From contig CALUJE010000001.1 in NCBI GenBank assembly GCA_944320885.1, positions 1 through 64,000 on the forward strand: 64,000 nucleotides of DNA, in the 5' to 3' direction. The DNA comes from an uncultured Phocaeicola sp. Lineage in GTDB: Bacteria > Bacteroidota > Bacteroidia > Bacteroidales > Bacteroidaceae. Positions 38,347-47,380 of the stretch are shown piece by piece. The first letter of the stretch is position 1, and each line of letters starts with the position of its first letter. The notes beneath the pieces are model-generated. The model was not told the DNA's origin. It was given only the letters and a program-made list of their open reading frames with translations, and ran no database searches. A program made the translations under genes and the position numbers.

Positions 38347-39372
38347 CTAATCAAACAATGTTCGTTCATTTGTATACCTGTTACGTCCCAGATGCTTGTA
38401 GGCCAGTTCGGTAACCTCACGCCCGCGCGGAGTTCTCTTTATGAATCCTTCCTTTATGAGGAACGGCTCATATACCTCTTCCAGTGTTCCGGCATCTTCT
38501 CCCAAGGCCGTAGCTATGGTGGTAAGCCCCACAGGTCCTCCCTTAAACTTATCGATAATGGTTCCGAGAATCTTGTTGTCTATTTCATCCAGCCCGTAAC
38601 GGTCGATATTCAAGGCTTCAAGGGCATAACGCGCAATCTCGATGTCAATCTTTCCGGAACCTTTCACCTGTGCAAAGTCACGCACTCTGCGCAACAAGGC
38701 ATTGGCAATACGGGGGGTTCCCCTACTCCTCGACGCTATCTCTCCGGCCGCCTCCACATCACAAGGCACATTCAGTATCTTGGCCGAACGCAAAATAATG
38801 CGGCTGATAACCTCGTCATCGTAATATTCAAGATGCAGATTGATACCAAAGCGTGCCCGCAAAGGAGCGGTAAGCAGTCCGCTACGGGTAGTTGCTCCCA
38901 CCAGAGTAAAGGGGTTCAGTTCCAACTGTATGCTTCGTGCCGAAGGTCCCTTGTCAATCATGATATCTATGCGATAATCTTCCATCGCCGAATAAAGATA
39001 CTCTTCCACTACCGGCGACAGACGATGAATCTCATCAATAAAAAGCACATCATTCGGCTCCAGAGAAGTAAGCAGTCCGGCCAAATCACCCGGTTTGTCA
39101 AGTACCGGTCCGGAAGTAATCTTAAATCCTACCCCCAATTCATTGGCAATAATATTGCTTAACGTTGTTTTTCCCAGTCCGGGAGGTCCGTGCAAGAGCG
39201 TATGGTCTAAAGGTTCTCCCCTCAGACGCGCAGCCTTTACAAACACCTGCAAATTATCGACTACCTTATCCTGACCGCTGAAGTCAGAAAACTGCAAAGG
39301 GCGTAAAGCATTCTCAAATTCCCGCTCCTTGCTATCTATTTGCTGGTTACGTATATCAAAATAATCTTCCAT
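38347..39372 (-). CDS. ruvB: Holliday junction branch-migration ATPase RuvB
   Basis: Hexameric AAA+ motor that drives branch migration with RuvA. 341 residues: N-terminal [13 protein letters not shown], Walker [13 protein letters not shown] (about 58-69), Walker [11 protein letters not shown] (about 109), sensor 1 [10 protein letters not shown], and the C-terminal winged helix with [16 protein letters not shown] and [10 protein letters not shown]. Full length and standard. It heads a two-gene unit with the flippase. Confidence 0.97.
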
Positions 39373-39525: not shown

Positions 39526-40611
39526 ATGGGCATAACAATTGAAAAGAAGAAATTAGCAGGTGGACGCATGGCACTCTACCTGAATTACAGTTTTCAAAAG
39601 AAACGTTGGCGCGAATCTCTGAATCTGATTCTGGAAGCCCCCGTCAGTCCGGATATTCGCAAGAAAAACAAAGAAAAGCTTCAACTTGCTTCCACTATCC
39701 GCAGCAAACGTGAAATTGAGATAGTTGAAAACTGCTACAGTGTTCGCAATCCATACCAGGAACGTTACATAGACTGGTTTGAGCTCTATCACACATTCAT
39801 ACAGAACTATAGAGGACGGGATATAAGAATGGTCAAGGCATCGCTGTCTTACCTGAAAAACTATGTCGGTGACCGCCATCTCCCGTCCAGCCAACTGAAC
39901 AAACAGTTCTGCCAGGGATTTTATGAATATCTGAAAGACCACCTTTCGGGTAATACCCCCACCGGATATTTCAAGAAGTTCAAACAATGTCTGGAATATG
40001 GCGTAGACAATCAGCTACTTCCTACCAATCCGGCATCAGGCATCCGTCTGCAACAACAAAACGAAATCACCAAATCCATACTCAACTCAAAAGAGCTTTC
40101 TCTACTGGCATCCACTCCATGTGTGCACAAAGAGGTAAAACGTGCCTTTCTCTTTTCCTGCTATACCGGATTGCGCTGGTGTGATATCATTACATTAAAC
40201 ATTTCTGCCATTGATTTTCCGAACCGCATGCTTCATCTTGAACAAAACAAGGTAAAGCGTCATTCCAGCAAATCGATTCTTCACCTGGCATTAAACAATA
40301 CAGCAATCCGATTGCTTAAAGCTAAAAAGCACTTGCCAGACGGACGCATTTTTGACCTGCCCTCCTACTCCTATTCCAACCGTTCACTTAAAGGATGGGT
40401 CATAACCGCCGGTATCCCTAAAAAGATTACTTTTCACTGTGCACGTCACTCATTCGTCACCAACCTGATGCTAAACGGAGCCAACATAAAAACCGCCTCC
40501 GAATTGGCAGGACATTCTACAATAAGACATACCGAGAAATACGTACACATCGTCGATGAAATCAAACGAGAAGCCGTAAACAGTCTACCCGACATAAAGA
40601 TTATTTTATAA
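39526..40611 (+). CDS. Tyrosine site-specific recombinase (Tsr/integrase type)
   Basis: A 361-residue tyrosine recombinase. The N-terminal arm-binding and SAM-like core-binding domains (about 1-200) are typical of Bacteroidetes integrases, with SLSYLKNYVGDRHLPSSQLN and FKKFKQCLEYGVDNQL. The catalytic domain has Arg in TGLRWCDI (about 218), HCARHSFVTNLM (His-x-x-Arg, about 304-316), the later His in AGHSTIRHT (about 327) and the nucleophile Tyr in KYVHIV (about 337). Length (~360) is that of chromosomal Tsr proteins which invert promoters of surface genes in Bacteroides. It is next to the inverted repeats at 40773 and 43994, so I take it as the recombinase of that switch. Confidence 0.88.
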   Translation: MGITIEKKKLAGGRMALYLNYSFQKKRWRESLNLILEAPVSPDIRKKNKEKLQLASTIRSKREIEIVENCYSVRNPYQERYIDWFELYHTFIQNYRGRDIRMVKASLSYLKNYVGDRHLPSSQLNKQFCQGFYEYLKDHLSGNTPTGYFKKFKQCLEYGVDNQLLPTNPASGIRLQQQNEITKSILNSKELSLLASTPCVHKEVKRAFLFSCYTGLRWCDIITLNISAIDFPNRMLHLEQNKVKRHSSKSILHLALNNTAIRLLKAKKHLPDGRIFDLPSYSYSNRSLKGWVITAGIPKKITFHCARHSFVTNLMLNGANIKTASELAGHSTIRHTEKYVHIVDEIKREAVNSLPDIKIIL

Positions 40612-40735: not shown

Positions 40736-40772
40736 TAAACAGTTTATATACAGAAATATACAAACAGTATAT

Positions 40773-40791
40773 AGTATTCGGCACGAATACT
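40773..40791 (+). repeat. Left inverted repeat: recombination site of the switch
   Basis: AGTATTC-GGCAC-GAATACT: two 7-bp arms in perfect inverted symmetry around a 5-bp asymmetric spacer (the symmetry extends one more base on each side). This is the layout of a tyrosine-recombinase core site. The right site at 43994-44012, read on the - strand, matches 17 of 19 positions, with 12 consecutive identical bases (TCGGCACGAATA). Confidence 0.8.
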
Positions 40792-41049
40792 ACTTACCTG
40801 TCTAATGCCGTTAATCAGGTGTTTCATTGCAATGTAAAAACGCTGATTAACTGGTATAGGGTGCAATATGCCAAAACGGTATTGTCTAAAAGAATGTATA
40901 ATCTAAAAGACATTCCTTTTGTATGCGGCTTCTCATCCAAAAGTACCTTCTATTCAGCCTTTAGAAAGTATGAAGGCATTACACCTTATCAATATATACA
41001 TAAAAGCAAAGACGAATATGAAACGAAAGATGACAAAGATATAGCCTGA
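40774..41049 (+). pseudogene. C-terminal half of a split AraC-type regulator
   Basis: Open in frame from 40735, but AraC homology begins exactly at the repeat: GTNTTYLSNAVNQVFHCNVK (end of the first HTH), then LINWYRVQYAKTVL (linker helix) and the second HTH with FVCGFSSKSTFYSAFRKYEG then ITPYQYI. The first half of HTH 1 is missing. Upstream codons (INSLYTEIYKQYIVF) do not look AraC-like. A GTG at 40819 could start a 76-residue product, which could not bind DNA normally. The missing half lies at 43967-44173 on the other strand; together they make a complete 145-residue HTH_18 domain. It is therefore better seen as a gene in its OFF configuration than as a dead pseudogene. Confidence 0.8.
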
Positions 41050-41131
41050 AAGGGCTTCATAAAAAACGAGAGAATTTGAAATCAATATTAATCATTAGTT
41101 TTAAATCTTTAAATTTAAAGTTTTAGTTATT
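41050..41131 (+). promoter_or_regulatory. Leader and possible promoter of the surface lipoprotein
   Basis: Contains TTTG (about 41075) and TAGTTTTA (7 of 8 matches to TAnnTTTG) 17 bp apart, followed by an A+T-rich leader to the ATG at 41132. Because it lies inside the invertible segment it would move with the gene. The match is imperfect, so a promoter outside the segment may be the real control. Confidence 0.3.
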
Positions 41132-43804
41132 ATGAACAAAAAGTTTATTAATGCTCTCCTGTTTAGTGCAGCATTGCTCTCTTCAGGAGCTATCGTAACA
41201 TCTTGCGATGACTACGATGATGACATTAACAGCCTTAATGATCGTGTAACAGCCATTGAAACAACAATTGCTGATATTCAAGCAAAAATTGGCGAAGGTT
41301 ACTTCATTAAGAGCTGTAACTATTCTAGTGGTGTATTGACATTGGAATTATCTAATGGACAAACTTACACAATTAAAGATGGTGCAAAAGGAGATACTGG
41401 TGCAACTGGAACTCCGGGAACTCCGGGTTCTGCTGGTAAGAATGGTACAATCTGGCAAATCAACGAAACTACCAAGAATTGGGAGTATAAAAACGATGGT
41501 GACACCGATTGGACTGATACCGGAATCAATGCTCAAGGTTTGCCGGGAACACAAGGCGCTCAAGGTGTTCACGCTGAATCTCCTTACATTGGAGAAGATG
41601 GTAACTGGGTTATCTGGGAATGGGATGCCGAACAGAATAAATTTGTAGAAAAAGCAACAAACATTACAGCTTCTGGTACTACTTCTTATGTAGTTGACAA
41701 AGGTTTGTATTACGAACTGCATATGGCTTTGGGTACAATAGATACTGAAGGTAACTTTACTGCCACAGATAAAGATTTCAGTGAAATCCGTTTGCCTAAG
41801 ACTCATGCACTTACTGATTTAAAAGCATATTCTGTAACAAACGAAGTATTAGGTGCTCCTGTAGTTAATGTTACTTATCATACAATTGGCAATAAAGATG
41901 TAACATTTAATAATAACACTTATACAAAAAATACTGTCCAAGTAAGTGAAAATTCAAAATTGACAGTTAAAGTTAATCCTACAGAAGCTGATGTGAAGTT
42001 GTATAACTTCTCATTAATAGACTCTAAAGGTAAGAGCATTTTCTCTATCAATTCTGAAAATATTGTTGCTAATACATCTGAGAACCCGTTGAAAACTCGC
42101 ACAGCAACTGTTAACAATGGTTTCTATGATATGCCGTTGGTAGTAAATGCTGGACTAAAATCAGCAGACATCACTTCTACTGCAAATGTTGCTTATGCAT
42201 TGGCTACAACTAATTACAATGATGATCAGATTACTACTGATTATGAAATAGAAATCAAAGCAGTAGAATCAAGTAATGTTGCAGAAAAAACAACTTGGTC
42301 AGGTATAGCATTGACTAAGACTACAGAAAAGGATACTTGGACATTTGCTGAAATTTGGGAAATGGTAAAAGCTGCAAATACTAATACTCCAGATGTAATA
42401 GATTACTATTTTGTATTGCCTGAAAATCAAACAGCAGCTGCAGAGGGATGTCTTACAGTAGATCAAGATGCAAAAACCATTACTGTTTTGAAAAATTCTA
42501 CTACTCCTATCAAACTGTATGTTAACTATGTTACATTGAATGGTACAGCAGTAGAAAGTAATGCCGAGGGCAAGGCTGTTAATGACAATAAACAGGCTAA
42601 AGAGATTGCAGTAACTCTTAAGTCTAGTTCAGAAGCTACTATTGGAGATGTTAACTGGACGATCCAGGCCGATAATGCTTCAACAACTAATGATGAAACT
42701 AAGTTAACTGTAGAAGTTACAGGATTGGATCAGTTCTGGACTGCTGATAAAACTCTTACTGCTTCTGATGTAGTACTTGAATTTGTAAATGACAAGATTA
42801 TTGTTAATGGTGAGGAAGACAAGAATGCTACAGTTGAAGGTATCACACTTGTCCAACGCATTAAGACAGACAATAAGGGATATAAAAGATATTATCTGGA
42901 GGTAGACTTTAATGAAACTAAAGTTTATGCAGAACCGGTTATTGCTACATTGAAACTGTCTAATGGTAATGAAGATAAAGAAGTATCATTCAATATCAAT
43001 GTAACTAACCCTGCAGAAGCTTACTTCGAGTTCCAAAGAGTTGATGCTTACTTCAATGAAAGTGGTGAAGCTAGTGTTTATGACAAAGGTGATTCTTGGG
43101 ATAATGCTTCTAATATAATATTCAACCTCAGCAAATTGTTTAAGAATGTAAATGCTACCGATAATAAGTTTACATTTGAGGAAGTTGTTCCTGAATTGAA
43201 AGCTGGTAATGCTACAGCATGGTTACAGAGTGGCGATAAGATCTCTATCGGTCAATACAAACTTCAAGAAAACAAAGATGGTGTAAACATTAATACCGGT
43301 ATTGGTAGTACACGTACATTCAAGATTGGTTACCGTCCATTTGGAAATGTACACTTGAACAGCGTTGTAGAAGAGTTCCAATTCACCGGGCGTTCTGTAG
43401 TAAACGAAGGCAAATTCTATTGGGGTACTGCAACTGCTGCCGGAAAAGCTATTGAGTTGACAAACAGTGCAACAGAAGTTCGTATTGATGCTGATGGCTT
43501 CTATGGAATAGAGCATGGATCATCTGAAGCTTATAAATTCTATGATAACAGCAGTAGTAAGATTAAATCATACAAATTAGTCGGTGACGAAAATGCCAAG
43601 ACATTCTTTGATATAGAAAATGCTTTAACAACAGTTTCCACTGAAGGCACAGGAGATAAAGCTAAACATTTCTTCTCTATCAATAGAAAAAGTAATGCCA
43701 ATGTTGAAAAACAAGTTAACTGTGTATTCACTTTGACATTAACCGATCGTTGTGGTATGCCAAAAGTTGCTACAGTAACTGTTACGTTATTACCTAACGA
43801 ATAA
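41132..43804 (+). CDS. Large surface lipoprotein with collagen-like Gly-X-Y stretch
   Basis: An 890-residue protein. Lipoprotein signal MNKKFINALLFSAALLSSGAIVTSC (Cys25) and an acidic start (DDYDDD), which in Bacteroidetes favours surface export. A short coiled-coil follows (SLNDRVTAIETTIADIQAKI), then two collagen-like runs: GAKGDTGATGTPGTPGSAGK (7 triplets, about 84-105) and GLPGTQGAQG (about 130-140). The remaining 700 residues are Thr/Asn/Val-rich and repetitive, probably a string of Ig-like beta domains, ending DRCGMPKVATVTVT. N-terminus and end resemble phase-variable S-layer-type lipoproteins of Bacteroides (BT1927-like); that link is from memory. It lies inside the predicted invertible segment. 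Confidence 0.8.
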   Translation: MNKKFINALLFSAALLSSGAIVTSCDDYDDDINSLNDRVTAIETTIADIQAKIGEGYFIKSCNYSSGVLTLELSNGQTYTIKDGAKGDTGATGTPGTPGSAGKNGTIWQINETTKNWEYKNDGDTDWTDTGINAQGLPGTQGAQGVHAESPYIGEDGNWVIWEWDAEQNKFVEKATNITASGTTSYVVDKGLYYELHMALGTIDTEGNFTATDKDFSEIRLPKTHALTDLKAYSVTNEVLGAPVVNVTYHTIGNKDVTFNNNTYTKNTVQVSENSKLTVKVNPTEADVKLYNFSLIDSKGKSIFSINSENIVANTSENPLKTRTATVNNGFYDMPLVVNAGLKSADITSTANVAYALATTNYNDDQITTDYEIEIKAVESSNVAEKTTWSGIALTKTTEKDTWTFAEIWEMVKAANTNTPDVIDYYFVLPENQTAAAEGCLTVDQDAKTITVLKNSTTPIKLYVNYVTLNGTAVESNAEGKAVNDNKQAKEIAVTLKSSSEATIGDVNWTIQADNASTTNDETKLTVEVTGLDQFWTADKTLTASDVVLEFVNDKIIVNGEEDKNATVEGITLVQRIKTDNKGYKRYYLEVDFNETKVYAEPVIATLKLSNGNEDKEVSFNINVTNPAEAYFEFQRVDAYFNESGEASVYDKGDSWDNASNIIFNLSKLFKNVNATDNKFTFEEVVPELKAGNATAWLQSGDKISIGQYKLQENKDGVNINTGIGSTRTFKIGYRPFGNVHLNSVVEEFQFTGRSVVNEGKFYWGTATAAGKAIELTNSATEVRIDADGFYGIEHGSSEAYKFYDNSSSKIKSYKLVGDENAKTFFDIENALTTVSTEGTGDKAKHFFSINRKSNANVEKQVNCVFTLTLTDRCGMPKVATVTVTLLPNE

Positions 43805-43853
43805 ATCTCTCAAATAAAAGAGTCTATACTCTTTATTGAATATATAATAAATA

Positions 43854-43883
43854 AAAAAGGGCGGCCCAGCGGTTGCCCTTTTT
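43854..43883. terminator. Bidirectional terminator after the lipoprotein gene
   Basis: AAAAAGGGC and GCCCTTTTT with a 12-nt loop, 50 bp after the lipoprotein stop. Symmetric A/T tracts suggest it can also stop transcripts of the truncated AraC N-half coming from the right. Confidence 0.75.
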
Positions 43884-43892
43884 CTGTATAAC

Positions 43893-43918
43893 ATACAGTA
43901 TTTATATGAATACTGTAT
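43893..43918. repeat. Second palindrome with the same arms as the recombination sites
   Basis: ATACAGTATT-TATATG-AATACTGTAT is a perfect 10-bp-arm palindrome. The inner arm AGTATT/AATACT is the same as the arms of the left recombination site, but the spacer differs (TATATG rather than GGCAC). It lies inside the segment, about 75 bp from the right site. It may be an accessory recombinase-binding site, or a terminator-like hairpin. Confidence 0.5.
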
Positions 43919-43966
43919 AATCACTACATATCATTGGTTAACAAATAATTATCACAACAAGACCCT

Positions 43967-44173
43967 TTATAAGTGACGAACTTCAACTTGGAAAATATTC
44001 GTGCCGACTACTGAACTAAATTTGGCCAGAGAAAGTCTCTTGTCTAAATAGATTTTATTACTGCCCAAATATTGCAAAATCTTTTTGCACAGTTCTCCAC
44101 TCCGCCCTTCCGGCAGGAGAGAGGGCGATGCCATCAGTTCTTTCATTGCAAATTCAGGTCTTATTGTATCCAT
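43967..44173 (-). pseudogene. N-terminal half of the split AraC-type regulator
   Basis: A 68-residue ORF whose first 59 residues are the start of an AraC-type DNA-binding domain: ELCKKILQYLGSNKIYLDKR then LSLAKFSSVVGTN, which is the leader helix and first half of HTH 1. At GTN the sequence enters the inverted repeat and continues into nine unrelated residues (IFQVEVRHL) and a stop. The continuation TTYLSNAVNQ... is found across the segment at 40789. Its 5' end and any promoter lie outside the invertible segment; on the - strand TACTTTCG (about 44217) resembles a -7 box with one mismatch. The current product would be inactive as a DNA-binding protein. Confidence 0.8.
43994..44012 (-). repeat. 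Right inverted repeat: recombination site of the switch
   Basis: On the - strand AGTAGTC-GGCAC-GAATATT. The spacer GGCAC and the inner arm bases equal those of the left site; two positions differ (T/G and C/T). The codons GGC ACG AAT here are in the same frame as in the left site. Confidence 0.8.
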
Positions 44174-44517
44174 ACTTTAGGTCTTTATGACGTAAATTCA
44201 GTTTTATGAAGCGAAAGTAGGAATTATGATTTCATCAGACAACATTTTTCATAGAAAATAGGACTGCTAACATCGTTTTTTTTAAGATGTTGGAAAAAAC
44301 ACACCTTTTACCTTTTCATTAAGCTTACAACGGCAAAAAATTCCAGAAACGTAAATATAATAGAAGAGATTATCTGATTGTATATACCTATATATATCAC
44401 TTCTGAAGTTATGCTACTAAAATACTTTTTAAGGAATCACCGGTAAAACCTTTCGGCCGATTGTTGTATCTTTGCCCTATAATTATAGATGTACACCTTA
44501 TTAAAATTATATAATTT
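44174..44517. other. Divergent control region between the AraC N-half and mutS
   Basis: A 344-bp gene-free region. It contains the mutS -7 box (44467-44474, TATCTTTG) on the + strand and an imperfect -7 box for the AraC N-half on the - strand near 44210-44220. No strong repeats. Confidence 0.5.
44467..44474 (+). promoter_or_regulatory. -7 promoter box for mutS
   Basis: TATCTTTG, 43 bp before the ATG at 44518. Confidence 0.6.
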
Positions 44518-47147: not shown

Positions 47148-47257
47148 TTTGCTGAGCCTTGACTGCCACCGTGCTGAGCCTTGGTCGCCACCACGCTGGG
47201 GCTTGGTTGCCAGCACACTGAGCCTTTGCCGCCAGCATGCTAAGTCTTAAGGGTCAG
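47148..47257 (-). repeat. Dispersed 22-bp tandem repeat, locus 2 (5 units, reverse orientation)
   Basis: Five contiguous 22-bp units (starting 47148, 47170, 47192, 47214 and 47236); the last has diverged. Each is the reverse complement of the unit at 26042-26129: core GCTGAGCCTTGrynGCCAs. It lies directly after mutS, in its 3' flank. Confidence 0.85.
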
Positions 47258-47380
47258 CAGCATTCTGATTTACAACAGGTTATTTCGGCTTCCCCAAGCA
47301 CATTTTCGGCAAATTCGCAGAAAAAGGGGTCCAGACCACATTCGCTTACATTCAACATTTATTACTATTACCTCAATAAA

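Follow-up and report, generated by a model that had tools for sequence, protein, structure and literature searches.

An AraC-type regulator gene in an uncultured Phocaeicola sp. is divided between the two ends of a 3.2-kb DNA segment. The gene lies in positions 1 to 64,000 of contig CALUJE010000001.1 (assembly GCA_944320885.1; source genome of 2.99 Mb in 57 contigs), and this stretch of 64,000 nucleotides is referred to here as the window. We consider it highly probable that the segment is a site-specific inversion switch, a form of phase variation, that splits and rebuilds the regulator of a surface operon; that it flips in this strain is what we infer. As assembled, the C-terminal half of the regulator (C-half) stands on the plus strand at one edge of the segment and the N-terminal half (N-half) on the minus strand at the other, the two meeting at the same Gly-Thr-Asn. 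A sequence-only reading of the window had proposed this arrangement and its repair by inversion, and both halves were confirmed. The proposal is supported as far as it went; missing from it were the surface lipoprotein gene inside the segment, the fixed promoter outside it and the shufflon found in relatives. The split state is called OFF below and the rebuilt state ON, and coordinates are collected in Table 1.

Crossover sites and the rebuilt regulator

The left recombination site (AGTATTCGGCACGAATACT) and the right one read as its reverse complement (AGTAGTCGGCACGAATATT) are identical at 17 of 19 positions, as previously proposed, and share an exact 12-mer (TCGGCACGAATA). The 2.99-Mb genome contains this 12-mer just three times: in the two arms and at one other place, around which no AraC-like frame was found. 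The codons GGC-ACG-AAT are read in the same frame in both regulator halves. Many chance pairs of equal length were present in the repeat listing, and the inverted repeat is convincing because of its position, frame and conservation rather than its length. With such short inverted repeats on either side, the segment has the structure of an inverton.

In silico inversion of 40780-44005 joined 59 and 86 residues into a single open reading frame (ORF) of 145 residues, just as the earlier reading had calculated. The fused protein gave one match to Pfam HTH_18 (residues 55-129, 58.9 bits against a cut-off of 33.6) and on that score has the two-helix-turn-helix (HTH) DNA-binding domain of the AraC/XylS type; the ON regulator of a relative, G014, scored 46.8 bits. 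The C-half alone reached 58.2 bits (model positions 6-78) and the N-half alone had no HTH_18 match. Since the score hardly gains from fusion, stronger evidence is the predicted protein's alignment over its full length with unsplit orthologues (LSLIKLSSVVGTNTTYLSN) and with ON copies. We take the crossover, from AraC-family alignment, to fall just before the recognition helix of HTH1, so that the N-half would hold helices 1-2 and the C-half the rest. The ratio of nonsynonymous to synonymous proportions of difference (pN/pS) against other loci was 0.22-0.50 for the C-half and 0.44-0.66 for the N-half, which is the faster-evolving part; both halves stayed below 1, including in pairs where both loci are OFF as assembled.

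The codons at the crossover are conserved beyond what the protein requires. In the split loci, Gly-Thr-Asn-Thr is written GGC in 10 of 11 cases, ACG in 11 of 11, AAT in 11 of 11 and ACT in 10 of 11, and the N side of the crossover is mostly AGT-TCA-ATA-GTS. At other conserved C-half residues the commonest codon has an average frequency of about 0.6, and synonymous sites between the compared loci are near saturation. Unsplit orthologues (three g3 genomes and G066) have the same residues, V-G-T-N-T-T-Y-L-S, in different codons, with GGG-ACT-AAT or GGA-ACC-AAT at the crossover. The core of the site differs between split loci (GGGTACG, GGGTACA, GGGCACG, CGGCACG), yet both partners of one locus differ together (AGTGGGTACG, AGTGGGTACA, AGTGGGCACG, GTCGGCACGAATA). 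Judged from these codon comparisons, the frozen codons and matched core variants point to a functional recombination site embedded in coding sequence.

Split and rebuilt states in related genomes

The fused protein was searched against 15 genomes of the genus and the matching regions were inspected. The locus was found in 10 of the 15. Split pairs on opposite strands occur in G001, G012, G013 and at three loci of G011, which argues against the two halves being independent short genes elsewhere. G003, G006 and contig C91 of G007 have the C-half beside the recombinase. An intact regulator stands directly before the surface gene in G014, in G008 and in four genomes of another genus of the family with larger genomes (g13), and on contig C189 of G007 the N-half is joined to the C-half. 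The rebuilt gene was thus seen in two other species (G014, G008) and on one contig of a third, and intact homologues, which the earlier reading had suggested looking for, do exist both as ON copies and as unsplit orthologues. At the ON locus of G014 the reciprocal site lies beside its recombinase (L038, position 1031). The two G007 contigs are identical over their terminal 141 nucleotides and diverge exactly at the crossover, one into an N-half and the other into a recombinase flank. Such ends would be expected if the assembler had met both junctions, which is support rather than proof; 141 is a common k-mer size in assembly.

Unsplit orthologues were found in three g3 genomes, between the gene for a MVLNYIWIAF protein and ruvB, a setting shared with G013 and G014, and without the recombinase. 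At two of these three loci a surface gene and an OmpA-like gene accompany the regulator. In G279 (L084) an unsplit orthologue occupies the syntenic position and is not followed by a surface gene. One G011 locus (L034, at 1.02 Mb) was considered as an intact ON copy on the basis of a long tblastn match; the sequence before its crossover is unrelated, and the locus was assigned to OFF. This locus and L035 (also on contig C1, at 1.14 Mb) are extra OFF loci with site variants of their own.

The neighbouring tyrosine recombinase

The recombinase whose presence near the segment had been noted stops about 160 bp short of the left arm and matches the Pfam families Phage_integrase (70 bits), Phage_int_SAM_5 and Arm-DNA-bind_5. 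Its translation contains the catalytic residues R (GLRW), HxxR (HCARH), GH and Y (KYVHI). An orthologue with about 50-60% identity is present in all ten genomes of the genus that have the locus, where it adjoins one locus in each, and in none of the five that lack it; just one of those five has any recombinase match at the cut-off, with 32% identity. Such a distribution would arise by chance once in 3003 if the genomes were independent, which they are not. The co-occurrence and the position suggest that this recombinase would perform the inversion. In G011, the recombinase at 0.54 Mb may act in trans on the loci L034 and L035.

Predicted promoter, operon and surface lipoprotein

At ten loci of the genus the N-half start is preceded, at about 40-70 bp, by a Bacteroides-type promoter (TTG...TAnnTTTG), and all ten also have a TTCC-N5-CTTAAA box upstream. 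In their alignment TTG and TA-nn-TT-G are nearly invariant, and the blocks of the box, in the form TTCC-N5-CTTAAAA, are invariant in 10 of 10. The same promoter motif is present in split loci of g13 genomes. A scan for consensus sigma-70 sites gave fewer sites than in shuffled sequences and was discarded. One other genomic place fits box and promoter together (G000:C4:34703-34767, minus strand; L116), before a small lipoprotein-like ORF, and is a possible second target of the rebuilt regulator.

The promoter is fixed because it lies outside the invertible segment, as does the N-half except for its 9-residue tail, and the locus is accordingly not a case of promoter inversion. The surface gene begins 82 bp behind the C-half and runs in the same direction; inversion of the segment therefore creates the order promoter, regulator, surface gene, hairpin, and the predicted promoter would drive this whole ON operon. 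The hairpin folds at -17.8 kcal/mol (z -3.5) on the plus strand and -13.0 kcal/mol (z -1.8) on the minus strand and is presumably a bidirectional terminator.

The 890-residue surface protein has a lipobox (TSCDDYDDDI), a collagen-like stretch and a weak DUF4988 match. In nearly all relatives examined, the gene behind the C-half or intact regulator encodes a homologue (MNKKF...SCKDYDDDI). The window protein belongs to this SCKDYDDDI family, whose members are large lipoproteins, and is probably surface-layer (S-layer)-like. The cassette of G014 also encodes an OmpA + OMP_b-brl protein, and similar ORFs are present at the G013 and G008 loci; in the window genome an OmpA-type barrel is encoded on another contig, away from the surface gene. 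A PDB sequence search with the surface protein returned no meaningful match, and an AlphaFold model (mean predicted local distance difference test score 37; 5 sequences) was discarded.

Proposed switch and alternative explanations

In the mechanism we propose, the recombinase would act on two short sites that double as the V-G-T-N codons of a small AraC-type regulator, one that consists of the DNA-binding domain and has no ligand-binding domain. Promoter and N-half would remain fixed outside, and the flipped 3.2 kb would carry the C-half, the surface lipoprotein gene and the terminator. In the OFF state, as assembled, the promoter would yield a 68-residue stub and its transcript would run into the hairpin soon past the stop codon, leaving the C-half and surface gene without a recognised promoter. 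After flipping, promoter, whole regulator and surface lipoprotein would form one operon. The rebuilt regulator would probably control its own promoter by way of the TTCC-N5-CTTAAAA box and may also act on other genes of the envelope.

Some observations weigh against this mechanism. The window genome shows OFF alone, every comparison of ON with OFF is between species, and the matching ends of the G007 contigs could also come from two near-identical cassettes. No recombinase adjoins the G011 loci at 1.02 and 1.14 Mb, and the G090 locus keeps a mere remnant of one. The most serious competing explanation, which we nevertheless think unlikely, is that the regulator is a passenger and the flip matters just by placing the surface gene behind a fixed promoter. 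At every ON locus the surface gene does follow the regulator in the same direction, promoter capture alone would switch it, and lipoprotein shufflons with a fixed promoter and no regulator are known (Mycoplasma Vpma, as cited in PMC11868660). Against a passenger role, both halves keep pN/pS below 1, unsplit g3 orthologues retain the regulator, and in g13 it heads the examined paralogous S-layer-like operons, which use promoter inversion instead.

The remaining explanations dispense with a working switch or with its recombinase. An old, fixed inversion with the halves as decaying remnants would fit the single state and single locus copy in the window genome and the faster evolution of the N-half; it is made very improbable by a split at that very codon in several other species and loci, the rebuilt copies in relatives, the frozen codons, the site variants matched within loci and the retention of the recombinase in 10 of 10 genomes. 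Least likely of all, in our estimate, is that the halves are independent short genes with separate roles. The C-half does have an internal GTG start (76 residues) and the N-half a proper start and a predicted promoter; against this, neither half amounts to a complete HTH domain, internal starts are not conserved, and the residues ahead of the C-half start (GTNTTYLSNAVN) are conserved even though they would then be untranslated. The N-half tail past Gly-Thr is unconserved among the split loci compared and usually stops within a few codons. Flipping by homologous recombination between the repeats is no more credible than decay: two G248 cassettes do share 61 identical nucleotides after the core, whereas the window repeats match over just 17 of 19 bp and the co-occurrence of recombinase and locus is perfect in the genus.

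Multi-cassette loci and paralogous operons

Genomes of g13 have a shufflon at the locus, with one N-half and several C-half cassettes in both orientations: two cassettes in G292, four in G248 and six in G090. Every cassette, or almost every one, has a surface gene behind it. With a single cassette and a single copy of the locus, the window genome does not have a shufflon here. In G248 and G292 the recombinase is next to ruvB. The N-halves of these two genomes are 98.7% identical, but the C-halves joined to them just 58%; the joined cassette of G292 instead resembles a silent cassette of G248, with 94% DNA identity in the C-half and 95.6% protein identity in the surface protein. HTH2 varies among cassettes. 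It is quite possible, though less likely than not, that a cassette swap brings a new HTH2 together with a new coat and so retunes which promoters are bound; DNA inversion would then rewire a regulon in a programmed and reversible way. The six-cassette shufflon (G090:C4; L073-L076) also holds mobile-element-like genes, and its recombinase is a C-terminal remnant adjoined by two other integrase-like ORFs.

The g13 genomes also carry paralogous operons of regulator and surface gene, in which the regulator reads ETNQT or DTNQT, not GTNTT. Nearly all of those examined have a pair of ATCTCTTAnTAAGAGAT palindromes spanning 193-206 bp just before the regulator, a putative classical invertible-promoter layout. 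The TTCC-N5-CTTAAAA box is absent from these promoter-inversion loci, save for one match with two mismatches. Paralogous operons were seen at L097-L103 (G248, G073 and G292), with three in a row in G073.

Relation to known systems

When surface layers and lipoproteins of gut Bacteroidales phase-vary, resistance to phages and to complement is affected; accounts of such variation usually invoke promoter flipping. Split regulator genes are rebuilt by site-specific excision in the sigK skin element and the Listeria comK prophage. The window locus resembles these in that site-specific recombination would restore a transcription regulator, but it differs in being a probable reversible inversion that also moves a surface gene. 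Intragenic and other gene-altering inversions, including type I restriction-modification hsdS, have reportedly been described (Chanin 2024, Milman 2023, as cited in PMC11892184); they too alter coding sequence, whereas here the inversion would set ON or OFF the regulator that heads the flipped operon.

Bacteroidales are already known to use promoter inversion, shufflons and gene-altering inversions (PMC12632263, PMC11892184). The BT1926-BT1927 S-layer of Bacteroides thetaiotaomicron affects phage and complement resistance and is phase-variable by promoter inversion (PMC12548429, PMC12578637). The window locus is alike in layout, with a large surface lipoprotein, a probable site-specific inversion and an integrase nearby; the outer-membrane beta-barrel partner of BT1927 has a possible counterpart in the cassettes of relatives and, in the window genome, on another contig. 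There, however, the promoter inverts; at the window locus the promoter is fixed and the coding segment would invert, with the crossover within the regulator gene. Shufflons with a fixed expression site are known from Mycoplasma agalactiae Vpma, Bacteroides fragilis SusC/SusD shuffling and R64 pilV (PMC11868660, PMC10939037, PMC12632263). These share with the G248, G292 and G090 loci a single expression site, silent cassettes lying in either orientation and a site-specific recombinase, but here the constant part is a promoter with half a regulator, and each cassette brings its own C-half along with a surface gene.

The literature searched, which did not take in a B. fragilis genome paper or the full texts of Chanin 2024 and Milman 2023, contained no account of an AraC-type gene split by inversion. 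Inversion of surface genes is known; a crossover placed within the gene of the operon-heading regulator is, to the extent of that search, undescribed. With the recombination site written in regulator codons, one DNA event would set both the choice of coat and the presence, possibly also the specificity, of a transcription factor; OFF cells would lack the regulator, and cassettes can carry regulator halves of their own. Because relatives have the same type of operon with apparently ordinary invertible promoters, or at the syntenic place without inversion, the way in which a promoter switch and a gene-splitting switch arise and differ is open to direct testing. Tools for promoter invertons, or ORF annotation of a single orientation, would label the halves as fragments or pseudogenes.

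Features of the locus

Table 1. Positions in the window of the switch components and flanking genes
Feature	Position	Strand	Basis or remark
ruvB	38347-39372	-	named from reading of translation
Tyrosine recombinase, 361 residues, presumed invertase of the site	39526-40611	+	Pfam and catalytic residues
Left recombination site AGTATTCGGCACGAATACT	40772-40790	+	perfect 8+3+8 palindrome
AraC-type regulator C-half (HTH1 recognition helix through HTH2)	40780-41049	+	HTH_18; no own start codon at break
Large surface lipoprotein gene, 890 residues, in invertible segment	41132-43804	+	lipobox, collagen-like stretch, weak DUF4988
Strong hairpin flanked on each side by an A/T tail, in segment	43855-43882	both	folding energies
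Regulator N-half, 59 residues to Gly-Thr-Asn and 9-residue unconserved tail	43967-44173	-	start at 44173
Right recombination site AGTAGTCGGCACGAATATT	43995-44013	-	inverted-repeat comparison
Predicted Bacteroides-type promoter before N-half	44212-44243	-	-33 TTGTC, -7 TACTTTCG; alignment of 10 loci
Conserved box TTCC-N5-CTTAAAA, candidate activator site	44280-44295	-	upstream of promoter; alignment of 10 loci
mutS	from 44518	+	named from reading of translation

Directly past mutS, at 47151-47260, the window contains tandem units of 22 bp similar to GCTGAGCCTTGACTGCCACCGT.

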